A stretch of 62,655 nt of DNA from Chloroflexota bacterium (GTDB lineage Bacteria > Chloroflexota > Anaerolineae > DUEN01). The notes beneath the pieces are model-generated. The model ran no database searches and was not told the DNA's origin. It saw nothing but the letters and a program-made list of their open reading frames with translations. The translations under genes were made by a program, and so were the position numbers. Numbering within the stretch: the stretch's first letter is position 1; the number at the start of each line of letters is the position of its first letter. The stretch lies in contig JAADGJ010000074.1 of NCBI GenBank assembly GCA_013152435.1, positions 1 to 62,655 of the forward strand, in the 5' to 3' direction. Positions 42,660 to 62,579 of the stretch are shown here, piece by piece.

Positions 42660-42737
42660 CCGACGGCACATCTCCCGAGCACTGCCCGAGAAGATCCCCT
42701 TCCGGTGAAATGCCCTTCACCTCACAGGAGTGTGACG

Positions 42738-44579
42738 ATGGACCCAACCATCGCCTTGCTTCAGGCTATCCGGTCGCTTTGGCCACAGCTCCCCGACCTC
42801 ATCGGAGATGATTGGCCTCAATTCAGGAGCCAGCTGGAGGGATATCTGGAGCGGTTGGAGGCCGATCCGGCCCAGGAGTCCATCACCCGGGCGCTGATCC
42901 TGGATCACTTCAGCCAGTATCCCGAGGCACACCAGCGCCTCATCGGGGAGATGGTCGCCTTTCAGAGCCAGCAACTGCCCTCCACATATGGCACCTTAGA
43001 GCGCACCACGCCTGCTCTCACACGCCTGCTCCATCCCACCATCACCCGCTATGCCGAGGTCACCTGCCCGCGCCGGGTATGGGTCCAGACGCCGCGCGTC
43101 CCCGTCGTCGTCCGACTGACGATGCGCCCGCCGGGATACGGCGCAGACATCGTGGAGCTGGCCGCCTATACGGGGATGCCCGTACGCGTGCGCATAGACG
43201 CGCCCGCCTTCGATATCCTCAACTCGGCGGAGCAGGAGACGCTCATCCTACCCAATGCCGATAGCACGCCGGATCTGGCTTTCGATCTACGCCCGCGCGA
43301 CACCGGCTGCACCCGCATCTACCTCGACTTCTTCCAGGCCGGGAACCCCATCGGGACGGTCAGCGTGCCTGTGGAAGTCACGGCTCACGAGATCAGCGCG
43401 CAGGAGGCGTCCAGGTTCGGGAGGGTGCTACGCGCCGAGCCCGATGCGCCCCCTCCTGATCGCATGCTCTACATCGCCTATGAACGATTCCAGGGGCAGC
43501 CAGCGCTGCGATTCGAGCTCAGGCGGGGAAGCGATGCCGGGAGAAGGTTCTACCCCACCCTGCTGGGAAGCGATCCGAAGACCTACATCGAACAGCTATA
43601 CGAGAGGCTTCTCACGGCACACGCGATCGATCCCGCCCGCTCGGCCGGGCCGGAACGCCGACAGGTGCTGCCGCCGGAGGACCCGGAGCAAGTCCTCCGG
43701 ACCCTGGGCCAGAACCTGTGGCGCGAGCTCATCCCGGAGGAGTTGAAACGCGCTTACGCGATCGAGCGCGGAAGCTGGCACGACGAGACCCTGCTCATCG
43801 TCTCCGACGAACCTCATATCCCGTGGGAGCTGATCTGGCCCTATGGACACGGCTGGCAGGACGATGGGCCCTGGTGCATCACCATGCGCCTGGCACGCTG
43901 GCTCCGCCGGGGGCCCCAAGGCGATGGGCACGAGGCCCCGCCCGTCCTCCTCCGCTTCGGCGCCCTGGCCTGTCTGGCCCCCACCGCCCCCGATCTGGCC
44001 GTCGCCCGGGAGGAACGGCGCCTTCTGGCCGAGCTGACGTCACGGTATGCCCTCTCCGACCTGAGCCCGGACCCGCCCACCTGGCCTCAAGTAATCGAGC
44101 TGCTGGAAGCGGGCGGGTACGATTGGATCCACGTGGCCGCCCAGGACCGCTTCCACCCCACCGCCCCCGATGCGGACTCGGCCGTCTGGCTCCAGGACGG
44201 AAGAGCGCTTACGCCGGAGGCCATCGTGGGATCGGACATCGAAGAACGGATCCGCGAACGCAGGCCCGGGTTCGTCTTCAACGCCTGCCACGGCGGACGA
44301 CAGGGCTGGGCCTTGACGCGTCTGGGGGGCTGGGCCAACCGGCTCATCGGCAACGGCGCCGGACTCCTCCTGGCCCCCCTCTGGGAGGCCACCGATGACC
44401 GGGCACTGGACTTCATCCGAGCATTCTACCAGGGCTTGCTCGACGGCGAGACGGTGGCGGAGGCAACGCGCCAGGCCCGGCTGGCCGTGCGCCGCGCCGG
44501 CGATCCCACATGGCTGGCCTACAGCCTGTACGCCCATCCCAACGCGCGAGTGGTGCTCAGCAGCCAACAGGAAACCTGA
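42738..44579 (+). CDS. CHAT-domain protein with catalytic His replaced
   Basis: A 613-residue protein ending in a CHAT (caspase HetF associated with TPRs) fold. The first 100 residues are helical and could be an effector-associated or adaptor domain, and about residues 100-220 look like a beta-sandwich. The CHAT part starts near residue 340 (IPWELIWPYG). The catalytic Cys is present (C517 in FNACHGGR), but the motif that should read HxxxHG is IHVAAQDRF, with Gln469 in place of the catalytic His. It is therefore probably inactive as a protease or uses another residue. The ATG at 42738 has AGGAG seven bases upstream. A secernin-like hydrolase gene follows after 29 bp, probably in one operon. 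Confidence 0.82.
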   Translation: MDPTIALLQAIRSLWPQLPDLIGDDWPQFRSQLEGYLERLEADPAQESITRALILDHFSQYPEAHQRLIGEMVAFQSQQLPSTYGTLERTTPALTRLLHPTITRYAEVTCPRRVWVQTPRVPVVVRLTMRPPGYGADIVELAAYTGMPVRVRIDAPAFDILNSAEQETLILPNADSTPDLAFDLRPRDTGCTRIYLDFFQAGNPIGTVSVPVEVTAHEISAQEASRFGRVLRAEPDAPPPDRMLYIAYERFQGQPALRFELRRGSDAGRRFYPTLLGSDPKTYIEQLYERLLTAHAIDPARSAGPERRQVLPPEDPEQVLRTLGQNLWRELIPEELKRAYAIERGSWHDETLLIVSDEPHIPWELIWPYGHGWQDDGPWCITMRLARWLRRGPQGDGHEAPPVLLRFGALACLAPTAPDLAVAREERRLLAELTSRYALSDLSPDPPTWPQVIELLEAGGYDWIHVAAQDRFHPTAPDADSAVWLQDGRALTPEAIVGSDIEERIRERRPGFVFNACHGGRQGWALTRLGGWANRLIGNGAGLLLAPLWEATDDRALDFIRAFYQGLLDGETVAEATRQARLAVRRAGDPTWLAYSLYAHPNARVVLSSQQET

Positions 44580-46832: not shown

Positions 46833-46959
46833 ACCGCCGCGGGAGATCGTCCAGAAATAGGGTAACGTTTTGCCCCTCGCGAGGCGGTTTGGAGTGACGC
46901 GAGCCACTCCCCTCTGGCAGCGATTTCCCAATCTCATTGGCCCAACGGAGCGAACACTG

Positions 46960-48270
46960 ATGGCCCAACTGCGTATCCGACCGGGTAACCCGCTGCGCGG
47001 GCGGCTACGTGTACCCGGTGACAAATCCATCTCCAACCGATTCCTCATGCTGGCCGCGCTGGCCGAGGGAGAATCCCGTGCCCGCGGCTGGCTGGCTTCT
47101 GACGATACGTTGGCAACCCTGCGTTGTATGGTCGCCCTGGGAGCGGAGATCGAGCGCCCGGAGGAGAACGAGGTGGTCGTGTGGGGAGGCGGGCTGCATT
47201 CCTTGCGAGAGCCCACCGACATCCTCTACTGCGAGTCCTCGGGCACGACCATGCGGCTCCTGTCCGGTCTGGTGGCCGGACAGCCGTTCACGACCATCCT
47301 TCACGGCTCGGAGCAGCTGCGCCGCCGCCCGATGAAGCGTGTGGTCACCCCCCTACGCCAGATGGGCGCCACCATCCTGGGGCGAGACGACGGCAACTTC
47401 CCCCCGCTGGCGATCCACGGCGGCGATCTGTCGGCGATCGAATACGAGCTGCCGGTCGCCTCCGCCCAGGCGAAATCCGCCATTCTGCTGGCCGGGCTGT
47501 TCGCGGGCGGCACCACGACCGTGCACGAGCCCGCCCCCAGCCGGGATCACACCGAGCGCATGCTGCAGGCCATGGGCGTGTTCATCGCCCGGGACGGACA
47601 ATCCGTGCGGATCACGCCGCCCACCACGCCGCTGGCGCCGCTGACGATGGCCGTCCCCGGCGACATCTCCTCGGCCGCCTTCCTGATCGCGGCGGCGCTG
47701 CTGGTCCCCGGCTCCGACATCACCCTGGAGAACGTCGGGGTGAACCCCACCCGGGCGGGACTGCTGGAGGTCTTACCCCCCATGGGCGCCGAAGTGGAGC
47801 GACTGGACGAGCGGATGTCCGGCGGGGGAGAGCCCGTCGCGGACCTGCGTGTGCGCGCCGCCGAAGGTATGGAGGGCGTCACCGTCGAGGGCGAGCGGGT
47901 GCCCCGCATGATCGACGAGTTCCCCATCCTGGCCGTGCTGGCCACCCAGGCGGAGGGGGAGACCATCGTCCGGGGCGCGTCCGAGCTGCGGGTGAAGGAG
48001 TCGGATCGGGTGGCCACGGTCGTGGAGGAGCTGCGCAAGATGGGGGCGCAGATCGACCCGGCCGAGGACGGGTTCACCGTGCGAGGCCCCACCCCGCTCC
48101 AGGGCGCCACGGTGGACGCGCACGAGGATCACCGGCTGGCGATGGCTCTAGCGGTGGCCGGGCTCATCGCCGAGGGGGAGACGGTGATCGAGGGGGCGGA
48201 GTGCATCGACAAATCGTTCCCGCAGTTCCCCGAATGTCTGGCCGCCCTGGGCGCCAGCGTGGTCGGATAA
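46960..48270 (+). CDS. aroA: 3-phosphoshikimate 1-carboxyvinyltransferase (EPSP synthase)
   Basis: Sixth step of the shikimate pathway: joins PEP to shikimate-3-phosphate. The 436-residue protein shows the phosphate-binding GDKSISNRFLMLAALAEG start, ESSGTTMRLLSG, VPRMIDEFPILAVLATQAEG, RVKESDR-like ELRVKESDRV, and AHEDHRLAMALAVAG. Residue context in the SSGTTMR loop (T-M-R) rather than G-T-A-M-R suggests a class II-like enzyme, but this is only a hint. I use the ATG at 46960 because it has GGAG nine bases upstream; an earlier in-frame start at 46870 adds 30 unrelated residues. aroE follows. Confidence 0.95.
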   Translation: MAQLRIRPGNPLRGRLRVPGDKSISNRFLMLAALAEGESRARGWLASDDTLATLRCMVALGAEIERPEENEVVVWGGGLHSLREPTDILYCESSGTTMRLLSGLVAGQPFTTILHGSEQLRRRPMKRVVTPLRQMGATILGRDDGNFPPLAIHGGDLSAIEYELPVASAQAKSAILLAGLFAGGTTTVHEPAPSRDHTERMLQAMGVFIARDGQSVRITPPTTPLAPLTMAVPGDISSAAFLIAAALLVPGSDITLENVGVNPTRAGLLEVLPPMGAEVERLDERMSGGGEPVADLRVRAAEGMEGVTVEGERVPRMIDEFPILAVLATQAEGETIVRGASELRVKESDRVATVVEELRKMGAQIDPAEDGFTVRGPTPLQGATVDAHEDHRLAMALAVAGLIAEGETVIEGAECIDKSFPQFPECLAALGASVVG

Positions 48271-48301
48271 GCCGCGTGTGACGGGCGCCATGGGAGGCAC
48301 G

Positions 48302-49174
48302 ATGATCGACGGACGCACACGGCTGGTCGGCGTCATGGGCTGGCCGGTGGAGCACTCCCTCAGCCCCCCCATGCAGAACGCGGCGTTCCAGGCACTGGGG
48401 CTGAACTGGTGCTACGTGCCGCTGCCCGTCCCGCCGGATCAGATCGCGGCGGCGCTCCGGGGGCTGCGGGCCCTGGGCTTCGCCGGAGCCAACGTGACCG
48501 TGCCCCACAAACAGGCCGTCATCCCCCACCTGGCCGATCAAACGGACGCGGCGCGGGCGATCGGCGCGGTGAACACCATCTGGGTCGAGGAGGACGGGAC
48601 GCTCCACGGGGATAACACGGACGCCTACGGGTTCCTGGCCGCCCTGCATGAGGTCGATTTCGCCATTCAGGGCTCGCACGCGGCCATCCTGGGCGCCGGG
48701 GGATCCGCCCGGGCCGTGGCCTATGCGCTGGGATCCGCCAAGGCCGAGCGGGTGGGCCTGTGGAATCGCACGCCGGAGCGAGCGGAGGCCATCGCCCGGG
48801 ACATGAGCGCCCTCTTCCCCCAGACGAGGTACGAGGCCCACCGCCTCCCCGACGATCTGCACCTGATCCGAGAGCCCACACACCTCATCGTCAACTGCAC
48901 GCCGGTGGGGATGTGGCCGCACACGGACGCATGTCCATGGCCGGAGGATCTGCCCTTCCCACGCCAGTGTCTGGTCATGGATCTGATCTATCGCCCGGAG
49001 GAGACCCGGCTGTTGGCCCGGGCGAGGGAGGCCGGCTGCACGACGCTCAACGGGATCAGCATGCTGGTCCACCAGGGGGCCGCCTCCTTCCGCCGCTGGA
49101 CGGGCATCGAGCCGTCCGCGGAGGTCATGACCCGGGCACTGCTCGCCGCCCTGCGGCAATCCGCTCGAGAATAG
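48302..49174 (+). CDS. aroE: Shikimate dehydrogenase
   Basis: NADP-dependent reduction of 3-dehydroshikimate to shikimate. Landmarks are VMGWPVEHSLSPPMQNAAF (substrate Ser-x-Ser), GANVTVPHKQAV with the catalytic Lys, DNTDAYGF with the catalytic Asp, LGAGGSARAVAYAL for NADP, and the terminal GISMLVHQGAASFRRW. GGGAGG just upstream of the ATG at 48302 decides the start over a GTG at 48278 and an ATG at 48290. The product is 290 residues. It follows aroA by about 30 bp. Confidence 0.96.
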   Translation: MIDGRTRLVGVMGWPVEHSLSPPMQNAAFQALGLNWCYVPLPVPPDQIAAALRGLRALGFAGANVTVPHKQAVIPHLADQTDAARAIGAVNTIWVEEDGTLHGDNTDAYGFLAALHEVDFAIQGSHAAILGAGGSARAVAYALGSAKAERVGLWNRTPERAEAIARDMSALFPQTRYEAHRLPDDLHLIREPTHLIVNCTPVGMWPHTDACPWPEDLPFPRQCLVMDLIYRPEETRLLARAREAGCTTLNGISMLVHQGAASFRRWTGIEPSAEVMTRALLAALRQSARE

Positions 49175-49175
49175 C

Positions 49176-49832
49176 ATGTCCCAGGCCAACGACCTGCCCC
49201 CCGATCCCAAGCGAGCCGTGGCCTCCGGCTACGACCGCATCGCGGAGCGCTACCTGCGCTGGACCCGGGAGCGCCCCGCCGCGGTCCGGCGGCGATACCT
49301 GGAGCTGCTGATGAGCCGGGTGCCCGCCGGGGGCCGCGTGCTGGACCTGGGCTGCGGCGCCGGCGATCCCATGACCCGGACGCTGGCGCAACGGTACGAC
49401 GTCGTGGGTGTGGACATCTCCGCCCGGCAGCTCGCGCTGGCCCGTCGACGGGTTCCGACCGCCCATCTGGTGCGCGGGGACATCGCCTGGCCCTGTTTCT
49501 CCGCCTCCGCCTTCGACGCCGTCACCGCCTTCTATGCGATCATCCACGTGCCTCGCTCGGAACACCCAGAGCTGCTGGCGGACATCTTCCGCATCCTGCG
49601 TCCCGGGGGGATCTTCCTGGGCACCATGGGGGCACACGATCTGCAGGACCTCTACGAGCCGGACTGGCTCGGGGCGCCCACCTTCTTCAGCCACTTCGAC
49701 GGCGAGACCAACCGACGCCTGGTGGAGGCGGCCGGGTTCCGGATCGAGGTCGCCCAGGTGGAAGGGGAGATGGAGGACGGAGATTATGTCGAATTCTTGT
49801 GGATCATGGCCCAAAAGCCGGCGGAGCCCTAG
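49176..49832 (+). CDS. Class I SAM-dependent methyltransferase
   Basis: A 218-residue methyltransferase with a seven-strand SAM fold. The SAM loop is VLDLGCGAGDPMTRTL, the acidic residue after strand 2 is in VVGVDISARQLALAR, and DIFRILRPGGIFLGTM is the motif after strand 5. It starts one base after the aroE stop, so it is coupled to the shikimate genes. Substrate unknown; the location hints at nothing specific, and it could be a small-molecule methyltransferase of the UbiE/ubiquinone-like superfamily. Confidence 0.9.
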   Translation: MSQANDLPPDPKRAVASGYDRIAERYLRWTRERPAAVRRRYLELLMSRVPAGGRVLDLGCGAGDPMTRTLAQRYDVVGVDISARQLALARRRVPTAHLVRGDIAWPCFSASAFDAVTAFYAIIHVPRSEHPELLADIFRILRPGGIFLGTMGAHDLQDLYEPDWLGAPTFFSHFDGETNRRLVEAAGFRIEVAQVEGEMEDGDYVEFLWIMAQKPAEP

Positions 49833-49992
49833 CGAAAGCGCCCTATCCGTAGGGAGCAACACACAACATATAGAGGTCTCCCACCGCATCAACCACAAGA
49901 TAGCGGGTAGGCGATCCGCCTTACGCGCTGGCCGGTCCGACCCGATGAGCCCCCCTCCCGACGGTCGGCTTCCATCGCTCCCCTGATGCGCC

Positions 49993-51156
49993 ATGAAAGC
50001 CCTCGCCACGCATCCGATGCTCCGCCCGTATCGCGCACTGGCCGCCCGGCTGAGCGCCAGGACCGCCCACTGGCGCTACGACGCCCGGGGCAGCCGGCGG
50101 GACCTGCGCCTGGATTTCCTGCGCGGCCTCTGCCTGGCCGTGATGGTCATCGATCATCTATGGCCCTCCGCACTGCACCTGGTCACCAAGGAGTTCATCG
50201 GCACGGTGACCGGGGCGGAGGGGTTCGTCTTCATCTCCGGCCTGGTGGCGGGGATCGTTTACACCCGCCGACTGCGGGAGCGGGGATGGGGGATGGTCAT
50301 CCTCCGGCTGTGGCGACGCGCCGGGCAACTCTACCTGGCCCACCAGGGGTTCCTGTTGCTCTTCCTGGTCTACCTGACCGTGGCGGGGTTCTGGTCCCCG
50401 CGGGAGATGGGATCTCTGGGAACGGCCATCTGGGACCTCGTCACCCTGCGCTACCAGCCGGCCCTGTTCGACGTGCTCCCCATGTACATCGCGTTCCTGC
50501 TGGTCACGCCGGCCGTCCTGTGGCTGCTGGCCTCCGGCCGCGTCGTGTGGGTGGTGGCGGCCTCCGTCGCCGTTTACCTGTACCAGCTCCTGCACCCTTA
50601 CGCGCTCTCCCTCCCCATCCTCCTGGGCGAGCGCGGCTCCGATCCCGTCTTCCCGTTCGCATCCTGGCAGCTCCTGTTCTTCCTGGGGCTGACCGCCGGC
50701 CATCACCGGGATCAGATCGGTCGGTGGTGGGCGAGGACGCCGCGCTGGCCGTTTTACGGACTCCTGCTCGGCGCCTTCGCCGTCTTCTTCGTCTACCGAC
50801 AATTGCTCAACGTGGGCTACCTGTACCTGGACCGCCCTACCTATCGCTTCTGGTTCGACAAAAGCCTGCTGGGGCCTGGGCGGGTCGCCAACTTCCTGGT
50901 GGTCTTCCTGGTGGCGTTCCTGACGCTGGATCGCCTGTGGGAGCCGCTGGCCCGAACGGTGGGCCACGTGCTGATCCCGCTGGGCCAGCATTCACTCTAC
51001 GTGTATCTTATGCACATCATCCTGACCTATGTGGCGCTGAACATCCCCCGGGCATGGGTGCCCCCGATCGGGCGGAGCGTGCTGGAGATCGGGGCCGTGC
51101 TCCTGCTGTGGGTCATGGTGCGTCGGCGTTTCCTTTTCAGGCTGGTGCCTCGGTGA
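49993..51156 (+). CDS. OpgC-like membrane acyltransferase
   Basis: A 387-residue membrane protein with about ten transmembrane helices and the OpgC family signature RLDFLRGLCLAVMVIDHL followed by GAEGFVFISGLVAG. OpgC attaches succinyl groups to osmoregulated periplasmic glucans in proteobacteria; this lineage would have another acceptor, perhaps cell-surface polysaccharide. The C-terminal LGQHSLYVYLMHIILTYV is typical of acyltransferase-3-like proteins. It separates the methyltransferase from aroC and is not an obvious shikimate-pathway member. Confidence 0.85.
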   Translation: MKALATHPMLRPYRALAARLSARTAHWRYDARGSRRDLRLDFLRGLCLAVMVIDHLWPSALHLVTKEFIGTVTGAEGFVFISGLVAGIVYTRRLRERGWGMVILRLWRRAGQLYLAHQGFLLLFLVYLTVAGFWSPREMGSLGTAIWDLVTLRYQPALFDVLPMYIAFLLVTPAVLWLLASGRVVWVVAASVAVYLYQLLHPYALSLPILLGERGSDPVFPFASWQLLFFLGLTAGHHRDQIGRWWARTPRWPFYGLLLGAFAVFFVYRQLLNVGYLYLDRPTYRFWFDKSLLGPGRVANFLVVFLVAFLTLDRLWEPLARTVGHVLIPLGQHSLYVYLMHIILTYVALNIPRAWVPPIGRSVLEIGAVLLLWVMVRRRFLFRLVPR

Positions 51157-51616
51157 TATACTGGGTGATATACTGTATGGAAAGCGTAAAGAATAAAACC
51201 CTTGGTTTGGCCCTATGGGTAGCGAAGGGCACTGCCCTTCGCTACCCCGCTCTGCATCTCTGGGGTGGCTCGGAGGGGCGGTAGCCCCTCCGAAGAACTC
51301 TATTTTCAGCCCTTCACCTGCCCCGTGGGGCCGGAGGCCACCGGCCAAAGCCCCAACCAGGCAGGGAAAAGGCGAGAAAAAGAGTTTTCCTGCGGAGGGG
51401 CTTCTTCCCCTCCGCACCTCCCCTTTTCAAGTGCGACCGCCCGTGGAGGGAAAAAGCGACAAGCGGGGGCCTCGCTCATGCTGTTCAGTTGATGCGAATA
51501 GGCAGTGCCCTTCGCTACTCACATCAAGATATAGGGGGATGCCATAAAAGAGGCCGTATATATAGGGCCTCAAAGAAAAAGACCAAACTCCAGTAAAACG
51601 TAAACGGGGAAGGAAC
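51157..51616. repeat. Structured GC-rich intergenic repeat region
   Basis: This spacer between the OpgC-like gene and aroC (460 bp) begins with a 12-bp tandem repeat, GTGATATACTGG/T (51151-51174). Then come a perfect 14-bp stem GGGTAGCGAAGGGC / GCCCTTCGCTACCC with a 3-nt loop (51217-51247), a CGGAGGGGC/GCCCCTCCG hairpin (51269-51290), and a GCGGAGGGG/CCCCTCCGC hairpin near 51392-51415. The sequence GCAGTGCCCTTCGCTAC returns at 51502-51518. The region is related to the elements at 209-467 and 55890-56091. No gene is supported. Confidence 0.5.
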
Positions 51617-52798
51617 ATGCTGCGCTTTTTGACGGCCGGGGAGTCCCATGGGCCATACCTGACGGCGATCCTGGAGGGGATGCCGGCGGGGCTCCCGCTC
51701 TCGCCGGATGACATCAACCGTGACATGGCGCGCCGCCAGAAGGGGTACGGCTCCGGCGGCCGCATGAAGATCGAAAAGGACGCGGTGGAGATCGCCGCGG
51801 GGGTGATGAACGGGCGCACCACCGGCGGGCCTATCTCCTTCCGCATCGTCAACCGGGACTACGCCCAGTGGCGGGACCGGGACGTCAAGCCCATGACCGT
51901 GCCCCGGCCGGGGCACGCCGACCTGACCGGGGCCATCAAGTACGGATACCGGGAGCTGCGGCTGGCGCTGGAGCGGGCCAGCGCCCGGGAGACGGCCGCC
52001 CGCGTCGCCGTGGGCGCGGCCTGTCGTCGGCTGCTGGCCGAGTTCGGCATCGTCGTGGGTTCCTATACCCTCGAGATCGGCGGGGTGGACGCCAGGCCGC
52101 CGGAGGACATGCCGTATCCGGAGCGGTTCGCCGCCGCCGAGGGGAACGACGTGCGGGTGGTCCACCCGGACCGGGTGGAGGCCGTGCGCGAGCGCATCCG
52201 CCAGGCGATGGAGGACAGGGACACGCTGGGTGGCGTGATCGAGGTGGTGGCGCTGCACGTGCCGCCGGGGCTGGGCTCTCACGTCCAGTGGGATCGGCGG
52301 CTGGACGCCCGGCTGGCCTGGGCGCTGATGTCCGTGCCCGCCATGAAGGGCGTGGAGATCGGCCCCGCGTTCGAGAACGCCCGGCGGCCGGGCACCCAGG
52401 TGCACGATGAGATCTTCCTGGAGGACGGCCGGCTGGTGCGGCGGACCAACCGCGCCGGCGGCTTCGAGGGGGGGATCACCACGGGCGAGCCCATCGTCGC
52501 CCGCGTGGCCATGAAGCCCATCGCCACCACGCTGAACCCGTTGCGATCGGTGGATCTGGCCACAGGGAAGCCGGCCACGACGAGCTACGAGCGGTCAGAT
52601 TTCTGCGCCGTGCCGAGGGCCGGCGTGGTATTGGAGGCCATGGCCTGCTTCGTCCTGGCCGACGCGCTGCTCGAAAAGCTGGGAGGAGATGGCCTCGAGG
52701 AGATGCAGCCCCGCTTCCAAGCGTTGCGTCAGGCCCGGCTGGAGGACCTTCCCATGGACGGCGAGCCGTGGCGATTTGGGTATACGACCCTGGAGTAG
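51617..52798 (+). CDS. aroC: Chorismate synthase
   Basis: Last step of the shikimate pathway: FMN-dependent elimination of phosphate from EPSP to give chorismate. The 393-residue protein has the family start MLRFLTAGESHGP, RRQKGYGSGGRM, TGGPISF, PRPGHADLTGAIKYG, ERASARETAARVAVGA, the late GGFEGGITTGEPI and RSDFCAVPRAGVV. AAACGGGGAAGGAAC supplies a ribosome-binding site. It lies behind a 460-bp repeat-rich spacer and is probably expressed separately from aroA-aroE. Confidence 0.97.
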   Translation: MLRFLTAGESHGPYLTAILEGMPAGLPLSPDDINRDMARRQKGYGSGGRMKIEKDAVEIAAGVMNGRTTGGPISFRIVNRDYAQWRDRDVKPMTVPRPGHADLTGAIKYGYRELRLALERASARETAARVAVGAACRRLLAEFGIVVGSYTLEIGGVDARPPEDMPYPERFAAAEGNDVRVVHPDRVEAVRERIRQAMEDRDTLGGVIEVVALHVPPGLGSHVQWDRRLDARLAWALMSVPAMKGVEIGPAFENARRPGTQVHDEIFLEDGRLVRRTNRAGGFEGGITTGEPIVARVAMKPIATTLNPLRSVDLATGKPATTSYERSDFCAVPRAGVVLEAMACFVLADALLEKLGGDGLEEMQPRFQALRQARLEDLPMDGEPWRFGYTTLE

Positions 52799-52997: not shown

Positions 52998-55667
52998 TTA
53001 CGGAGCGTCCTCCCCCGACAGTTTCTGGAGCACCTCCACAGCCGGCGCCAAGAGTTCCTCATCCGGTTCCTGGCCCGCCGCCCGGCAGGCCTCAAGATAG
53101 TCGCGAGTCATGTACGCCATGCGGCGGACGAACGCCGCTGGAAGGCGCACGAAGAAAGGTGCAAGTATGCGTACCGCTTGCTCGTAGGCTCTCAGCGCCT
53201 CCTTCGACCGATCCAACTCGGAGAGGCGATCTCCTAAGTTATTGAGACTGGTGGCTAAGTAAGGCAAGAAGGCGTCCGGATTCCGACAAGCCAGATCCCG
53301 ATACCGCTCGACAGCTTCCTCCGTGGCCCGTAAGGCCGCCTCCCGCCGCCCCAACTCGGAAAGCCTGTTGCCCAAGTTGTTGAGACTCATAGCCAGGTCC
53401 GGCAAGAAGGCGTCCGGATTCCGACGAGCCAGATCCCGTCTGATCTTGACGGCTTCCTCCGTGGCCTGTAAGGCCGCCTCCCGCCGCCCTAGCGCCGAGA
53501 GGGCTACCCCCAAATTGCTTCGCCACCTCGCCTGTTCAGCCTCATCACGGGTTACGGCCAGGAAGGCCTGATACAGTCCGACCAACATCTCCCGGTGGGC
53601 CAGGGTGCGCTCGGGATGGTCAGGCAGGTTGGCGCGCCAGGTTTCCATCCAGTCGCGGGCTGCTTCCGGATTGTGCGCGTCCAGTTCCCTAGCCGTTTCC
53701 TCCAGCCAAGCGGCCAGCGTCCCGGCCACGGCTCGCGCGGCCTCCGGATACGCGTCACACAGGCGAGGCAACACCTCTCGGGCAGTGATCAGGGGCCATA
53801 ACAATGGCACAATGTCCTGTGCCCCTACAGCGAGAATCTCAGGTGGTCGAGAGGATACCTTCAAGCGCTGGAAAACCGCCTCCATCTTCCCAGGTGTGGG
53901 CAAGATCGCGCGGGTGAGCGCGGCCAGATCCTTGCATCGCGCCAACACGAAGTCCGCCAGAGGGTCCGGGGCGACAGGCGAGAGCAGGGAGGACGGCCAG
54001 AAACGCTCCTCTGCGGGGAGAGAGGGGACGATATAAGGCACCTGCTGCGCCAGCCAGGGGAGATCCAGCGTCTCCCTCCGCGGGTGACGCACGCCAACCG
54101 GTGGACATCGCTCCCAAAACGCGGCCACTTCCTCGGGCGTGAAGAAGGGACGGCCCAGGGTAGCTGCAACCAGGGCCTGTTCTACGCGCGCCTGGGCCAT
54201 CTGCACCAGGTGGCCATCCAGGCTCCCCCGGGCGATTTGGTCCAAGATGCGGGCCCACTTGTCCCGCTCCCAGTCCCACACATTCTGATAAATGGCTTCT
54301 TCGTCCCGGCTGTCAAGCACCCTGTGCCCCTGTGCAGCCAGGAATGCCAGCAGGATCAAGGCCAGAGGACGACGAGGCAGCGCGTCGTCCTCATACTCTA
54401 CCCGGGGCACATCCTCTCCCACGGCCAGGCGCCTGCGAAACGCGTTCACGGCCACGTCGAAGAGCTCCCGGCGCTCGGCTTCCTTGAGGGAAGGGATGGA
54501 TCGAGGGGCCATGTCCTCGACCAAGAGGCTGCACAGGTGCTCGACACCCCGGATACTCCACTGACGCAGGTCCTCGTAGAACGGGCTACGTCTGGTAGGG
54601 TCCTCTGGCGACGTGGGGGCCTGACGGGTGAGGAAGACCAGCGCCAGGGGGGCCTCCCGCCCCTTCACGGCCACCACCGCGTCCAGCAGGGCCTCCAGAT
54701 GACCAAAGGGACGCATCTCCGCGTAGTCCACGATGAGGAGTGTGGGGCGCTCCGGGTCGGCCCATACCTGTATATGCTCCTCGCTCCACCCCTGAGGGGA
54801 GCGAGGCAGGAAGCCCACCCGCCAGCCGCTTTTCTGCAAAGTCATGCCCACCTCCAACAGGAGACGGGTCTTGCCCGCGCCGCCAGCGCCGTGGAGCCAC
54901 TGCAGCCTTACCCGGGCCTCCTCCCGATCCAAGCCTTGGGCCCAGGTCACCAGATTGTCATGAAGGGAGTGAAACTTTTCCCCGATGAGAGGAATGAGAT
55001 GATACAGGTACTGGGCCTTGAGCTCGTGGAGGGTAAAGCGAGCCTCAGGCTCGACCTGTTCAATTCTCACCACGGGATCGAGAGCGTCCCAGGCCCTCGC
55101 CCTGGGGGATCGCGCTTGCTCTTCGAGCTGTTGCTGCAGCGCAGTCAGCGCCCCGTCGAGGTGATCCAATCGCTCCAGCGTTACCTGCTGGAAACCCAGA
55201 TCTCGAATCTCCGGATACCTCAGAAGGGTCTCATAGTATGTGCGCACCAGATGTTTGATAGCAAGGAGCGCCCCCTCTTCCACCAGTTGCAAGCGCTTTT
55301 CCCCCGCCTTGAGGGTTGCTTCAGCGGCTTTCCGGGGGTCGAAGTTCAGGTCCGCCAGCGCTCGTTCGTCCAGGCCGTGATCCTGCAGCAAAAAGAGGGC
55401 TTCGATGTAGGCATGTTGCGCCAGATCGCGACCGGAGGAAGACATCTCCCTTTCCAGGAAACATGCCCAGTCCTCACACGCCTTCTCCAGGGCTCGGCAA
55501 GCCTGCGCGTCAGCGGAGACGTCGGAGAGCCAATCTTCATAGATCTGATACAGGGTCTGGGCCACGTCCAGCCCGCCCAGCACCTCCCTCAGGATGGGCA
55601 CGCGTCGGGCGGCAACGACAAAAACGGTCAGACCAATGGTGTGGATGCCCCTGCGCCTCGAGGACAC
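52998..55667 (-). CDS. STAND-like P-loop NTPase with C-terminal TPRs
   Basis: About 889 residues. The first 240 are helical and match no domain I recognise. Then comes a P-loop NTPase: Walker A HGAGGAGKTR (about residues 259-268), Walker B LLIVDYAE, sensor LVFLTRQ, and a helical lid region. The C-terminus (about 730-870) has Nephrocystin-like TPRs, including two 46-residue repeats that are nearly identical (GRREAAL..ATEEAV ... NNLG.RLSEL). This order is that of STAND signalling ATPases, which switch on effectors upon binding a trigger; several are anti-phage sensors. No effector domain is obvious. GGAGGG five bases before the GTG at 55667 sets the start; a TTG at 55679 is less likely. Confidence 0.78.
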   Translation of the reverse strand: MSSRRRGIHTIGLTVFVVAARRVPILREVLGGLDVAQTLYQIYEDWLSDVSADAQACRALEKACEDWACFLEREMSSSGRDLAQHAYIEALFLLQDHGLDERALADLNFDPRKAAEATLKAGEKRLQLVEEGALLAIKHLVRTYYETLLRYPEIRDLGFQQVTLERLDHLDGALTALQQQLEEQARSPRARAWDALDPVVRIEQVEPEARFTLHELKAQYLYHLIPLIGEKFHSLHDNLVTWAQGLDREEARVRLQWLHGAGGAGKTRLLLEVGMTLQKSGWRVGFLPRSPQGWSEEHIQVWADPERPTLLIVDYAEMRPFGHLEALLDAVVAVKGREAPLALVFLTRQAPTSPEDPTRRSPFYEDLRQWSIRGVEHLCSLLVEDMAPRSIPSLKEAERRELFDVAVNAFRRRLAVGEDVPRVEYEDDALPRRPLALILLAFLAAQGHRVLDSRDEEAIYQNVWDWERDKWARILDQIARGSLDGHLVQMAQARVEQALVAATLGRPFFTPEEVAAFWERCPPVGVRHPRRETLDLPWLAQQVPYIVPSLPAEERFWPSSLLSPVAPDPLADFVLARCKDLAALTRAILPTPGKMEAVFQRLKVSSRPPEILAVGAQDIVPLLWPLITAREVLPRLCDAYPEAARAVAGTLAAWLEETARELDAHNPEAARDWMETWRANLPDHPERTLAHREMLVGLYQAFLAVTRDEAEQARWRSNLGVALSALGRREAALQATEEAVKIRRDLARRNPDAFLPDLAMSLNNLGNRLSELGRREAALRATEEAVERYRDLACRNPDAFLPYLATSLNNLGDRLSELDRSKEALRAYEQAVRILAPFFVRLPAAFVRRMAYMTRDYLEACRAAGQEPDEELLAPAVEVLQKLSGEDAP
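53214..53489 (-). repeat. Tandem 138-bp DNA repeat inside the NTPase gene
   Basis: Two consecutive 138-bp units (53489-53352 and 53351-53214) encode nearly identical 46-residue TPRs, and the DNA itself is highly similar. This indicates a recent duplication and possible length variation by slippage. Confidence 0.7.
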
Positions 55668-56210
55668 GGTTCCCTCCAATGCGGAAACGCGGGCGAGAAA
55701 CTATACGGATCTTGCCTGCCCCATTTTACTACGACAGCGGCCATCGACGCAACGGCCGGCCAGCGACAAGGGCTCGCGGGCATCCCTGACCAAGGTACGC
55801 CATATCCCCGGCAAATTCCCATACCTGGCGGCCCGAACTTTTTGTATAATATTCTTAAGGTAGATCCCGGCCGGGCGACCCGCCCACGGAGGGATCCTAC
55901 CCTTGGAGGCTTACGTCGGAGGGGCTCCCCTCCACGCTTCCCTCCTCAGGGACAAGCGCCCCTGAAGAGAGAAAAGCTCGAGGCCCGAGGCAGACGGCGG
56001 AGGAAGGGCGACGACGCGCACACCCCCTCCCCAAAACCCGGGCATGGCGCTCCAGTCCCCGCAGCAACGCTCCAAAGAGTGCGTTTGAACACCCAACCAA
56101 AGATGGGCTACCCGAAAAATCGAACAGTACATGAATAGCCGCGGAGGCCTCTCCACGGCCCATATCCCCTGGGGAGAGCGCCTCGAAGGCGGACATCAGG
56201 AGGTATTGTC
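55668..56210. other. Divergent intergenic region, 543 bp, with repeat
   Basis: Between the NTPase gene and the giant surface-protein gene. A TATAAT at 55845-55850 is the best plus-strand promoter element. From about 55890 to 56091 the sequence contains a GGAGGGGCTCCCCTCC palindrome and ends with GTGCGTTTGAACAC, related to the ends of the 209-467 element. No gene is convincing here. Confidence 0.5.
55845..55850 (+). promoter_or_regulatory. Candidate -10 element for the giant surface-protein gene
   Basis: A perfect TATAAT in an AT-rich patch, without a convincing -35. The leader would be about 350 nt and includes the GC-rich repeat. Confidence 0.35.
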
Positions 56211-59200
56211 ATGCACATGGAGAAGCTGCTCCGCTCCCCCCTGTTCCTCCTTTTCATCGTCCTCGTCGTCCTGGGGATCACGCTCGTTCCGCCCCTACCC
56301 TCATGGGGTGTAAGCGATGCCGCACGGGCCGCGGGGATCTCCACCCCTTATGCGATCAGCCAGGGCCAGTGGACAAAGGTCGATCTCGGCACCCTCATCA
56401 GCGACTTTCGCGCCATATGGGGGACATCCCCTAGCGACATCTACGTCGTAGGAAGCCGCTACACCATCCTGCATTACGACGGGACCTCATGGAGCCGGGT
56501 TGGACCCAATAACCTCTCTTACTATCTATACGACGTTTGGGGCTCCGCCTCTAACGATGTGTATGTCCTGGGCGAATATGGAGAGGTATATCACTACAAT
56601 GGCAGCACGTGGTCCAACTTCCAGCTGACGCAGGCAGGTAGCTCACTGGGGCTGAGCCGGGCATATAGCATTTGGGGAACAGGACCGGATAACATCTTCA
56701 TCGTCGGAGGCAATGACTCAGGAACCGCCAGCACTGAGGGACGTATCTTTCACTATGACGGCAGCACCTGGTCACTCCAATTCGTCGTCTCAAGCCTGGG
56801 ATACCTCTGGTTCAACCACGTATGGGGCCTATCTCCCACGGAGGTCTATGCTCTGACGAACACGGGGGAAATCTACCGCTATGACGGCACCCTATGGCAA
56901 CCCATGTCCTCTCCCACGACATCCGCGCTCTTCGGCATGTGGGGGACCTCATCGAGCAACCTCTACATCGTCGGAGAAAGCGGAAGAGCATACCACTACG
57001 ATGGCTCCTCCTGGAGTCCTCTCACCCTTCCCCTGAACCGATCGACCGACTACATCTACGGCATTTGGGGCACCTCTGCCACAGATATCTACGCCGTAGG
57101 AGACAGCGGGTCTATCGTCCACTATGACGGAAGCACCTGGTCATCCATGAACAGCGGGGTTACCAATGGGCTGCGGGATGTATGGGGCACGAGCAGCATT
57201 GTGTACGCGGTGGGCAATGAAACAACGATCCTGTACCACACAGCCTCTGCCGCCACTCCTACCCCGACATCCACGCCCACGTCCACATCCACACCCACGC
57301 CTACCCCGACGAGCACGCCGACGGCAACCCCTACACCTACAACCGAATATATCGTGGTCACCGACACCCCTACGCCTACGCCGACCCCCACGCCCACGAC
57401 CACACGTGAATATCACTTTGAGGGAGCGGTGAAGGACTCTGCCGGCAATCCCTTGATAGGCGTGCTCATCCGGCTCCTCGCGCGCACCACCGAGGAGGAG
57501 GCCTGGAATGCCATCCAGGAAGTGTATACCGATCGGCAGGGACTGTACGCCCTCTACCGGCAGGAGGTTGCAGGCTATCGCGACTATCGCGTCGTCGAGG
57601 TGGACCCGCCCGGCTACGTGTCCACGGGGGCGGAGGCAGCTCCCGGCGGCACGGTCATCGATTACAACACCATCGAGTTCCTCAATCCGCCCTCCGGCTA
57701 TTACCGGGGCAACGTCTTCTATGATGCCAAAGCGCCCCCCACCCCCACCCCGACGCCTACGCCCGGCATCCCTATCCTGACCATGGGCGTCTCCGGGGAA
57801 GCCCAGAAAACATGCCCATCATCCGACGAATGGCGGGTTCAGAACATTATCCTTTCCGTCAACGAGGTCTCGGACTGGCAGGTCTCCTCGATCACGTTCA
57901 ACGCGTCGGGTACGGGAAATGAAAAGGACGATATCCAGGAAGCGCATCTCTATTACGGCAACCGCCTCTTAGGCACGGCCAGATACGACAGGGATAATGG
58001 CTCCATCTCGTTCAGCTTCGGGTTGCACATCCCCAAGGGCGGGACGGTGCGCCTGCGGCTGACCTACAAGCTCGATCCGGACAAGATGACCTGGGATGCC
58101 CGCAGCAAGACCTTCCAGGTGACCACGAGCGTGAAGCAGCTAGGAGCTATCCCCCTTGATCCACCCACCGACAAGTACGAGAAGCTGCCGCCCAATCCCA
58201 TCGTGGGGCCGGAACACGAGATCGCCCGAGTGTGGAATGTCTCCCTGAAGCCGGAGAAGGGATTTGGCACCATTCAAGGAGGGATCGACGCGGACGTCAC
58301 CGTGGATGGCCACACACTGGAAGTCTGCCCTGACACCTACCGAGAGAACGTGCGCGTCACCAAAGAGCTGACCATCCTGGCGCAATCCCCCCTCACTTCC
58401 CTCATCGAGGCCGCCCAACCTGACGCGCACGCGGTGGAGATCACCCGAAACAACACCACCATCCATGGATTCGTCATCTATGGCGCCACCGGCGAGGGCA
58501 AGGCAAGCATCGCCGCCCATCCCACCAACGGCGTCTCGAACCTCACCAACGTCCAAATCCTCAAAAACCGCCTGGAAGGCAACGATTACGGGCTCTTCTT
58601 CAAGGACGTGGCCAACAGCCTTGTGCGCGACAATATCCTGCAGAATAACCGGGCCTACGGCGCCTACCTTGGCCCCAACATCCTGACCAATGACGAGGAG
58701 CAGCGGATCCGCTTCGAGAGGAACAAAGTCTCACACAATGGCGGAGGGATCTTCCTTGACGGCGTTTTCGACGCCCTGATCACCGACAACACGGTGGAGA
58801 AAAATCGAGCGCGTGCGTCGCTCACCCAGGCCGAACAGCAACTGCCCCTCGGCCATGGCGTCTATCTGCGTGATTCACACATGGTGCACCTGCGGAATAA
58901 CAAGATCGGCCACCACTCCGGACATGGCATCGTGGTCGAAGGGGGCGGGAGCCAGACGACCTCCAATGTGCTGGAGGGGGATGCGATCTACGATAGCGGA
59001 GGATACGGCATCTATGTCAAGAACGCGAAATACACCCGGATCATCAACCCGATATTGATATCTAACGCTGGGGACGCCATCTATATCGAAGGCGGCGAGG
59101 GCACTCGCATCTCCCAAGAGGATAACGACCGAGGAAAGGATTGCTCCATTGATCTTACGGACGCCATCACGGCATCCGCCCGCGCCATCGTGGTGACGGG

Positions 59201-62200
59201 CGGCGCGCGGGATACCCGGGTAGTGGGATGCACTCTCGCCCTGCGGGATACGGACACGGGCATCTACGGAGAGAACGCCACGAACCTGACCGCGCGCGCC
59301 AATCTCATCTTCTACGGCACCTACGGCGTGTATCTCAAGAACGTCACCGGCTTCCTCATGTTGGAGAAAAACGCCCTCCAAGACCAGAAGGAGGAGGCTT
59401 TGCGTTGCGAGGATTCCCGTGATCTGGACATCCGCCAGGGGAACGAGTTCTTCCTCCCGGGCAAAGCAGCCCTGGCTTTCTACCGCTGCACCACGACCCG
59501 TCGGGACGATCAGAACCGAGTCTGGAATAATATCATCGACGGGCGCGCACGCACCAAGCAAGGCATCTACATAGAGGATAGTTCATCCCTGTGGGTGGGG
59601 GAGAATACGATGAGGAACCTCGTCGAAACGGGCGTGGCCATCGCCAACGCTCAGGGGATCGAGGTCGCGCGCAACACCATCGCCGATGTTCAGCAGAACG
59701 GCGTGATCGTCTCCTCGGCCCAGGATGTGGACATCCGGGAGAACACCTTGACCAACATCTCGCAAGACGCCGTGGCCATCACCTCATCCCAAGACGTGCA
59801 GGTCCAAAAGAACACGATCAATGGCGTCGGACGTACAGGCGTGCGCGCGGTGTCCTCCAGCAAAGTGATCCTGCAAGAGAACACGATCCAGTACTCGGCC
59901 GCCCAATCTGGCATCCGCCCGAGCGCCTCCTCGCTTCCTATCAACGGCATGTACCTGGTCAACCTCTCGGACAGCCGCATCGTCACCAACACGGTGAGGA
60001 ACATGGTCGGCCGGGGCATCATGGCCCGCGGCGGGCAGAATATGGTGGTGAGCGGCAATACGATCCAGGGGAACAACGGCGGCCTCCTGTTGTGGGAGAG
60101 CCCCGCCCAGGTGCGAGGCAACACGGTGAAGGACAACCGTGGCTATGGGATCTTCCTCTACAAAAGCGAGAAGACCACGGTGGCGGGCAATACGGTGGGC
60201 CCCACGGCCCTCGGCATGGCCCAGGACCCCGCCGTGCGACGGGGGGTGAATACCACGGGTGGGCACGGCATCCTCCAGTTCTGGGGCAAGGAGAACCGCA
60301 TTGAGGGGAACGAGGTCACCTACAGCGCCGGCACCGGGATCTATCTGGAGTGCTACGGCCAGACCATGGACAAAGTCGGCTGCGAGCGAACGGCCATCCT
60401 CAAGAACGAGGTGGCGGCCAACACCGGCCACGGTATCCTCATCTCCTATGGAGATCACGTGAACGTCAAGGGCAACCTCATCGCCAACAACAGCGGCGAT
60501 GGGATCTATCTGCATCATGCCATCGCTGCCACCGTCGCCCAGGCCGACGACGAAACCCCCAACCGCATCCGCGAGGTACGAAACGGCATCGCGGTCATCG
60601 GCGGCGGTGGCCATCACATCTGGTCGAACCAGGTGAGCAAGCCCCGCGAGCATGGCATCACGCTGGTGAACACCACCAAGAACACGGTGTGGAACAACGA
60701 GATCTCCGACGCCGCCAAGGATGGCATCCATCTGGAGAAGGCGCCGCGCAATACGGGCTGGGACGGGAGTTCCGGCATCGAACTGAATCGCGTCACCAAG
60801 AGCGGGCGCTATGGCATCTATCTGGACGAGTCCCCGGAGAACAGAATTGGGGCGAACACCGTCGAGGACAGCCCATACGATGGGATCTACCTGCGGCTCT
60901 CCCACAAGAGCCGCGTGCAGGGCAATAAGGTGTATCGCAGCGGGCGCTACGGCATCCACTTCCAGGAAACCCATCAGAGCGAGATATCCAAGAACATCGT
61001 ACAGGAGCAAGGGGAACACGGCATCGTGCTGGATAGCGGCTCCCAGCGCAATGTGTTGAAAGAAAACCTGGTGGGTATGGACAAGGGCAACGGCGGCGAT
61101 GGGCTGCGCCTGGCCTACGCGCACAAGAACGAGATCCTCAACAACCAGTTCCAGTTCAACAAGGGCCACGGCGTCTCTCTCTTCGTGGCCGAGGGCAATA
61201 AGATCGAGAACAACACCTTTGTGGAGAATGAGGGAGACGGCGTCTACAGCGACGGTTCCCGCCAAACACAGATCCTGAACAACCGCTTCGAGGATAACAA
61301 GGGCAACGCGATCGCCCTGAAGAACAGCACGGTAGATCGTCGAGCCAGGCGTACGGTGGTGCGGGGGAACCGGGCAACACAAAACTACGACTTCGGCTGG
61401 GGCAAAAACGGCATCCTGGTAGACACGGCCAACTACATCGAGATCCTCAGCAACATCGTGACCAACCATCCCGAGTACGGGATCTACATCAATCGCACGG
61501 ATCACACCACGGTCCTGGGCAACCGTCTGTTGAACAACTGCGGCGGCATCTACATCCAGAATAGCCAGTTCCTGGCCGGCACCATGGGCAACAACACCAT
61601 CAACAACAGCTGGTGCCTGTTCACAGGCATTCACCTGAAGAACGCCAGTCCCCGCATCGAGGGCAACCAGATCTCTGGTAACGCCGGGGACGGCATCATC
61701 GCAGAGGAGGGGTCGAACCCGGAGATCGTGAACAACGCGATCACAAACAACGGCCGCGACGGCATCCGCACCATGAGTGGGTCCCAGCCCACGGTGCGGG
61801 ACAATACCTTCAACGGGAACGCGGCGTTCGGCCTGCGCAACGAGGACACCTCGGTGACCGTGGACGCTCGCGGCAACTGGTGGGGCGACGCCAGCGGCCC
61901 GAGCGGCGAGGGGCCCGGCTCAGGCGATGCGGTGAGCGCAGGCGTGGACTTCACGGGCTGGCTCCCCACCCCCGCCGGCCTCACGGCCCGGGCCGAGCCG
62001 GCGGAATTGTGGGCGCCGCCGAGTGGCCAGGTGGTAGCGCACGTGTACCTGCAAACGCTGACCGCTCTCCCCGCTGCCGTCACGGTGACGGTGGGTGACG
62101 AGCAAGGCTGGACGCCCGCGGGCTACAGCTTCCGGACGACCATCACCGAGACCGCGGGAATGGCGTTGCCCATCACCATCACCGTGCCCGCGAACGCGGC

Positions 62201-62579
62201 GCCAGGCACGGTGAACACGGTGCGGGTGACCGCCACGTCCGAAGGCGATCCCTCTCAGGAGGCGACAACCACGTTCCAGGTGCAGGTGACGGCGCCGGTG
62301 CAGTGGGCCTCTATCCTTGGTCCCACCATGCTGGACCTCGGCGAGACGGCCACCTTCACCGCCCTCGTGATGCCGCAGGACGCGGCGGAACTCCTGTTCC
62401 TGTGGCAACCCGATCCCGCCGAGGGCCAGGGCGAGAGCTCCGCCACCTTCACCTGGGACACCCCCGGGCTCCACACGGTGACCCTGGAGGTGGAACAGTT
62501 CGGGCAGACCTTCCAGGTCAAGAAGTTGGTGGCCGTAGGGAGGGGATGGCAGGTATACCTACCGATGATGACGAGGTAA
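56211..62579 (+). CDS. Giant secreted protein: seven-blade propeller, CnaB-like domain, parallel beta-helix
   Basis: 2122 residues. AGGAGG seven bases upstream sets the ATG. A signal peptide or anchor occupies residues 6-33. Seven repeats of about 45 residues follow (patterns such as WGTS..DIYAVGDSG and HYDGSTWS), a probable seven-bladed propeller to about residue 345. A Thr/Pro linker, a CarboxypepD_reg/CnaB-like domain (about 395-505), a second TP linker and a beta-sandwich come next. From about 690 to 1890 there is a very long right-handed parallel beta-helix of PbH1/NosD-type coils (GI-Y/N-x-I and N-N/T patterns). Two Ig-like segments follow. The end, WQVYLPMMTR, resembles the YLPxxxR tail common on secreted Chloroflexota proteins. 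No Asp/Arg polysaccharide-lyase site was located, so enzyme activity is unproven; adhesion or glycan binding is as likely. Confidence 0.88.
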   Translation: MHMEKLLRSPLFLLFIVLVVLGITLVPPLPSWGVSDAARAAGISTPYAISQGQWTKVDLGTLISDFRAIWGTSPSDIYVVGSRYTILHYDGTSWSRVGPNNLSYYLYDVWGSASNDVYVLGEYGEVYHYNGSTWSNFQLTQAGSSLGLSRAYSIWGTGPDNIFIVGGNDSGTASTEGRIFHYDGSTWSLQFVVSSLGYLWFNHVWGLSPTEVYALTNTGEIYRYDGTLWQPMSSPTTSALFGMWGTSSSNLYIVGESGRAYHYDGSSWSPLTLPLNRSTDYIYGIWGTSATDIYAVGDSGSIVHYDGSTWSSMNSGVTNGLRDVWGTSSIVYAVGNETTILYHTASAATPTPTSTPTSTSTPTPTPTSTPTATPTPTTEYIVVTDTPTPTPTPTPTTTREYHFEGAVKDSAGNPLIGVLIRLLARTTEEEAWNAIQEVYTDRQGLYALYRQEVAGYRDYRVVEVDPPGYVSTGAEAAPGGTVIDYNTIEFLNPPSGYYRGNVFYDAKAPPTPTPTPTPGIPILTMGVSGEAQKTCPSSDEWRVQNIILSVNEVSDWQVSSITFNASGTGNEKDDIQEAHLYYGNRLLGTARYDRDNGSISFSFGLHIPKGGTVRLRLTYKLDPDKMTWDARSKTFQVTTSVKQLGAIPLDPPTDKYEKLPPNPIVGPEHEIARVWNVSLKPEKGFGTIQGGIDADVTVDGHTLEVCPDTYRENVRVTKELTILAQSPLTSLIEAAQPDAHAVEITRNNTTIHGFVIYGATGEGKASIAAHPTNGVSNLTNVQILKNRLEGNDYGLFFKDVANSLVRDNILQNNRAYGAYLGPNILTNDEEQRIRFERNKVSHNGGGIFLDGVFDALITDNTVEKNRARASLTQAEQQLPLGHGVYLRDSHMVHLRNNKIGHHSGHGIVVEGGGSQTTSNVLEGDAIYDSGGYGIYVKNAKYTRIINPILISNAGDAIYIEGGEGTRISQEDNDRGKDCSIDLTDAITASARAIVVTGGARDTRVVGCTLALRDTDTGIYGENATNLTARANLIFYGTYGVYLKNVTGFLMLEKNALQDQKEEALRCEDSRDLDIRQGNEFFLPGKAALAFYRCTTTRRDDQNRVWNNIIDGRARTKQGIYIEDSSSLWVGENTMRNLVETGVAIANAQGIEVARNTIADVQQNGVIVSSAQDVDIRENTLTNISQDAVAITSSQDVQVQKNTINGVGRTGVRAVSSSKVILQENTIQYSAAQSGIRPSASSLPINGMYLVNLSDSRIVTNTVRNMVGRGIMARGGQNMVVSGNTIQGNNGGLLLWESPAQVRGNTVKDNRGYGIFLYKSEKTTVAGNTVGPTALGMAQDPAVRRGVNTTGGHGILQFWGKENRIEGNEVTYSAGTGIYLECYGQTMDKVGCERTAILKNEVAANTGHGILISYGDHVNVKGNLIANNSGDGIYLHHAIAATVAQADDETPNRIREVRNGIAVIGGGGHHIWSNQVSKPREHGITLVNTTKNTVWNNEISDAAKDGIHLEKAPRNTGWDGSSGIELNRVTKSGRYGIYLDESPENRIGANTVEDSPYDGIYLRLSHKSRVQGNKVYRSGRYGIHFQETHQSEISKNIVQEQGEHGIVLDSGSQRNVLKENLVGMDKGNGGDGLRLAYAHKNEILNNQFQFNKGHGVSLFVAEGNKIENNTFVENEGDGVYSDGSRQTQILNNRFEDNKGNAIALKNSTVDRRARRTVVRGNRATQNYDFGWGKNGILVDTANYIEILSNIVTNHPEYGIYINRTDHTTVLGNRLLNNCGGIYIQNSQFLAGTMGNNTINNSWCLFTGIHLKNASPRIEGNQISGNAGDGIIAEEGSNPEIVNNAITNNGRDGIRTMSGSQPTVRDNTFNGNAAFGLRNEDTSVTVDARGNWWGDASGPSGEGPGSGDAVSAGVDFTGWLPTPAGLTARAEPAELWAPPSGQVVAHVYLQTLTALPAAVTVTVGDEQGWTPAGYSFRTTITETAGMALPITITVPANAAPGTVNTVRVTATSEGDPSQEATTTFQVQVTAPVQWASILGPTMLDLGETATFTALVMPQDAAELLFLWQPDPAEGQGESSATFTWDTPGLHTVTLEVEQFGQTFQVKKLVAVGRGWQVYLPMMTR

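Follow-up and report, generated by a model that had tools for sequence, protein, structure and literature searches.

Among the systems described so far, parallels include the beta-helix adhesins PfbA (PMC3718772) and EtpA (PMC10284417), surface or secreted beta-helix proteins that bind host molecules; these belong to other organisms and secretion routes, and are likened to the protein reported here by description, not by sequence kinship. In terms of the fold of its beta-helix, the nearest solved structures are the polysaccharide enzymes AlgE4 (2pyg) and AlgG (4nk6), together with phage tailspikes and NosD (7o0y, PF05048). Surface proteins of uncultured Anaerolineae have hardly been studied.

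The window (the whole stretch of 62,655 nucleotides that was analysed) constitutes an entire contig (C74) of a Chloroflexota genome of 5.0 Mb in 149 contigs. A preliminary description had recognised near its end a 2122-residue surface protein, the largest gene of the window, composed of a seven-blade propeller, two Thr/Pro linkers, a CnaB-like domain, a beta-sandwich, a beta-helix of about 1200 residues and an Ig-like end. This observation is confirmed in nearly all points, while the interpretation attached to it is partly supported. The gene is a single unbroken open reading frame of 2122 codons (56211-62579, + strand, from ATG at 56211 to TAA at 62579), the longest in the window, and is provided with its own ribosome-binding site 7 nt 5' of the ATG. 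The terminator ascribed to it is present as a G+C-rich hairpin of 13-14 pairs, located about 35 bases 3' of the stop codon and followed by CTTTT; the hairpin is missing from the consensus scan because the contig end cuts the T-run, and since the window is the entire contig, the remainder of the T-run and everything downstream are missing. The structured RNA leader that had also been proposed was rejected, as the upstream leader folds no better than shuffled sequences (z 0.4 to -1.4) and gave no credible match in Rfam. The protein, from a phylum that has received little study, combines known modules in a new order together with one domain without a family name (Table 1), and is on balance probably a cell-surface adhesin or carbohydrate-capture protein in which a propeller head is borne on a beta-helix stalk.

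Table 1. Features of the 2122-residue gene and its divergent neighbour, with positions in the window.
Feature	Position	Strand	Basis
STAND NTPase and TPR protein, divergent neighbour, possible regulator	52998..55679	-	context
Ribosome-binding site AGGAGG	56198..56203	+	sequence
N-terminal export signal, residues 1 to ~40 (strongly hydrophobic 11-27)	56211..56330	+	sequence
Seven-bladed beta-propeller, residues 53-345	56367..57245	+	repeats, predicted structure
Thr/Pro-rich linker 1, residues ~346-394	57246..57392	+	sequence
CnaB/prealbumin-like domain, residues 397-507, weak assignment	57399..57731	+	weak Pfam match, paralogue
Thr/Pro linker 2, residues 508-518	57732..57764	+	sequence
Beta-sandwich-like domain, residues 520-680	57768..58250	+	conservation, predicted strands
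Right-handed parallel beta-helix, residues 684 to ~1910, ~50 coils of ~23 residues	58260..61940	+	profiles, model covering 518-1717
Better-conserved helix stretch, residues 1493-1717, including loop APRNTGWDGS	60687..61361	+	identity to G124
Ig-like domain, residues 1925-2030	61983..62300	+	inferred from sequence character alone
PKD domain, residues 2038-2095	62322..62495	+	Pfam, above cut-off
Putative YLP-box sorting motif GWQVYLPMMTR with stop codon	62544..62579	+	NF050076
Rho-independent terminator-like hairpin, T-run interrupted at contig end	62617..62655	+	z -3.3

The hydrophobic N-terminus is followed by seven repeats of the form WGTSxxDIYxVGxxGxIxHYDGxxW, and the propeller named in the preliminary description is borne out by the predicted structure. 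In this model (AlphaFold2, two sequences; pLDDT about 90), six four-stranded blades and a seventh, which is closed by the N-terminal strand, are arranged round an axis. The nearest solved structures are likewise seven-bladed propellers, the best being the designed v13WRAP-T (Z 31.7); sequence identity to them is only about 8-12%, hence the fold is uninformative on function. Both main Thr/Pro linkers are found in the sequence. The CnaB-like assignment stands in part: the domain matches CarboxypepD_reg of Pfam weakly (E 0.0014), its scores lie below the curated cut-offs (19.4 vs 32.3 for PF13620 and 14.9 vs 29.7 for PF17210) and its model has a pLDDT under 50, but a paralogue in the same genome (on contig C82) has clear SdrD_B/SpaA matches above cut-off at the corresponding place. 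Of 298 genomes queried with the CnaB-like part and the sandwich, 65 gave matches, almost always across the CnaB-like part, and by this measure domains of this kind are common in the class. The beta-sandwich is similarly upheld in its predicted content, which is chiefly strands, but with moderate model confidence and without a match to any Pfam family; the domain is conserved in three further genomes belonging to the class.

The beta-helix dominates the chain. Pfam Beta_helix (PF13229) matches it in 11 stretches (E 3.5e-124; 410.6 bits against a cut-off of 25.9), TIGR03804 scores 216.8 bits against a cut-off of 19.45, and between about residues 690 and 1900 the sequence has a clear period of 23 residues. 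Structure prediction, which had been proposed as a check in the preliminary description, was run on residues 518-1717 and gave a parallel beta-helix with a pLDDT of 80-95 over most coils. The count of about 50 coils is approximate, being derived from a hand-made register with scoring of our own design; with the rise of 4.8 A per coil typical of beta-helices, a helix of this size would form a rod about 24 nm long. A direct search of the whole chain against PDB sequences found nothing at E 0.01. The helix model matches AlgE4 (Z 33.2), NosD (Z 32.6), phage tailspikes and AlgG (Z 28.8), and a three-sequence profile detects NosD (E 2e-9) and AlgG (E 4e-8).

The agreement with NosD in Pfam, NCBIfam and fold could be read as indicating a NosD-like protein for metal delivery or one associated with an ABC transporter. 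Nevertheless, the TIGR04247 score of 201.7 bits falls short of the cut-off (300), the protein is three times longer than NosD and carries foreign domains, and no nosF-, nosY- or nosL-like gene is seen among the ten neighbours scanned, which lie on one side as the contig ends downstream. Such a role is very improbable.

The likeness to AlgE4, AlgG and other polysaccharide enzymes raises another alternative, namely that the beta-helix itself acts on carbohydrates as a lyase, epimerase or hydrolase, the active site lying in coils 1493-1717, and that the propeller and CnaB-like domains are accessory to it. It is within this stretch that the AlgG profile match falls, and the stretch is the best conserved part of the helix: it shares about 48% identity with the relative in G124, compared with about 31% for the preceding coils and 25-35% for most coils, and includes a conserved loop (Table 1). 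Against an enzyme, neither the mannuronan C-5 epimerase motif DPHD nor DxHD occurs anywhere in the chain (Y-LRL stands at the DPHD position of AlgG), the GH28-type polygalacturonase motifs NTDG and RIK are absent from it, and the NCBIfam AlgG score is 21 of 700 bits, far below the cut-off. Other beta-helix lyases and hydrolases (PL1, PL6, PL9, GH110 and others) share the fold; none of their families is matched in Pfam or NCBIfam. In comparison with AlgE4 and AlgG, the helix is about three times longer and is combined with other domains. Also against an enzyme, NosD, an equally close fold, is not a carbohydrate enzyme of the lyase, epimerase or hydrolase kind. A catalytic helix is unlikely, though it remains a reading with some weight.

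One feature of the coils may bear on carbohydrate recognition. In 17 of 35 coils the first strand has an aromatic residue or His at its outward position, compared with 8% overall, and for 11 of the 17 the same holds in the relative; this column could be a sugar-binding track. It is partly an ordinary beta-helix feature, since other helices encoded by the same genome have values between 0.09 and 0.46. The sheer length of the helix and the size of the protein would also fit a self-assembling filament or sheath subunit of stacked beta-helices; however, the sequence holds no pointer to end-to-end assembly and the helix is flanked at both ends by other domains, which makes a filament improbable.

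Three genomes of the same class (G124, G052 and G148) carry the sandwich and the helix start. A search of named genomes with the single sequence returned no relative, while an alignment recovered two, the Anaerolineae MAG G124 and the Chloroflexota MAG G052. Across 400 genomes of the phylum, a profile of the sandwich and helix start was matched over its whole length only in the source genome, and four others matched the helix start only. The protein of G124 (L045, Anaerolineae bacterium MAG JALWHQ010000099.1) has the same domain order, i.e. propeller, Thr/Pro linker, CnaB-like domain, sandwich and beta-helix, and is 55% identical across the sandwich and the start of the helix, or 40% across the sandwich and helix together; it differs in a diverged propeller and is cut by a contig end before its C-terminus. 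In G052 the sandwich and helix are preceded by a carbohydrate-binding module (CBM96), and the helix goes out of frame near the contig end. In G148 they are preceded by DUF11 and further N-terminal repeats or domains, and the helix has roughly half the length (16 of the counted coil motifs, compared with 34 here). Conversely, propeller paralogues occur in the source genome on contigs C82, C77 and C97, the last of which joins the propeller, Thr/Pro linker and CnaB-like domains to a metalloprotease-like module with the zinc-protease motif HELGHALG and ends in SWLPMVRR. The reading frame of this C97 paralogue (L041:2720-7080) is broken between its halves, near the CnaB-like domain, perhaps by a frameshift or an assembly fault; a near-identical stretch stands at the end of C77. 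As judged from the sequences of three relatives, head and rear modules are swapped around shared linkers.

Exchange of head and rear, variable helix length and poor conservation of most coils fit the expectation for a spacer bearing a binding head. In the proposed arrangement, the protein would be exported to the cell surface with the seven-bladed propeller as an exchangeable binding head, the two Thr/Pro linkers would lend flexibility, the rigid beta-helix would serve as a stalk carrying the head away from the cell, and the C-terminal Ig-like domains and YLP-box would sit at the cell end, presumably as the anchored side. Such a protein would probably serve to adhere to carbohydrates or surfaces, or to capture them, sugars being the candidate ligand. 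Counted against a head on a spacer is the conservation of coils 1493-1717, which is better than a plain spacer needs. Of the three functions offered in the preliminary description (adhesin, filament or glycan-processing machine), the adhesin, here with a stalk, is the best supported, while glycan processing is weakened by the missing DPHD motif and the variable helix length. No propeller head is known to us in PfbA or EtpA. If the proposal is correct, head exchange among relatives would show how these bacteria alter their attachment targets.

The placement at the surface had been part of the preliminary description, and the N-terminal hydrophobic signal and Thr/Pro linkers support it, as does a C-terminal YLP-box that the description did not mention. 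The Ig-like end is retained, with a PKD domain above the Pfam cut-off (Table 1). The last 11 residues score 16 bits with NCBIfam NF050076 (sort_motif_YLP), just above its cut-off of 15; the score is marginal and the model short, and their role in sorting is putative. Similar C-terminal endings are carried by many exported proteins of the same genome. In 150 genomes of the class, a DNA pattern comprising the tag and the stop codon was counted 483 times, compared with 126 times for the reversed pattern. Among 20 sampled open reading frames ending in the tag, most have a strongly hydrophobic signal at their start; those that do not are either short or truncated where the stretch ends. The protein resembles other YLP-box proteins in combining a motif above cut-off with an export signal; the tag alone is common, whereas the remaining chain varies from protein to protein. 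The tag was initially considered a new discovery, a claim withdrawn as it is already in NCBIfam; a literature search on the tag, or on such proteins in Chloroflexi, found nothing useful. The putative tag is now tied to a testable protein. Within the class, YLP-box endings (YLPxxxR and stop) abound in some genomes, such as G024 with 48 occurrences and 0 of the control pattern, and are almost missing from others; example reading frames from a class-wide sample are L060-L079.

The divergent neighbour is a possible regulator (Table 1), the N-terminal ~200 residues of which belong to no family. In G124 and G052, the two relatives whose upstream gene is visible, the divergent position is occupied instead by a BTAD-AAA-TPR regulator, as it is beside the C77 and C82 paralogues. 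The source genome has about a dozen strong BTAD genes, and at least six of them adjoin a gene for an exported protein. Five of the six proteins have a YLP-like end; the sixth (C77) is truncated where its contig stops. This association suggests local control of surface proteins by the adjoining BTAD regulators. A more speculative proposal, and a rather doubtful one, is that the sandwich together with coils 1493-1717 makes up a so far undescribed unit for binding or processing carbohydrates, combined with varied recognition heads in a set of Chloroflexota surface proteins under neighbouring BTAD/STAND-TPR regulators. With regard to defence, PADLOC gave no match for the 2122-residue protein or the STAND-TPR neighbour.

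BTAD-AAA-TPR (SARP-like) genes adjoin exported propeller, beta-helix or peptidase genes on C77, C82, C10, C67, C135 and C95, divergently in five cases; the loci concerned in the source genome (G000) are L043, L042, L053, L049, L052 and L050/L051, and L038 and L039 are listed alongside them. An open reading frame on C95 (L050:4196-12451), at 2751 residues, exceeds the 2122-residue protein in size; it carries an export signal and stretches of beta-helix. Elsewhere in the window, aromatic-biosynthesis genes for EPSP synthase, shikimate dehydrogenase, a methyltransferase and chorismate synthase lie together (46870-52798), and a protein with a CHAT protease domain at its C-terminus is encoded at 42705-44579 (+ strand).
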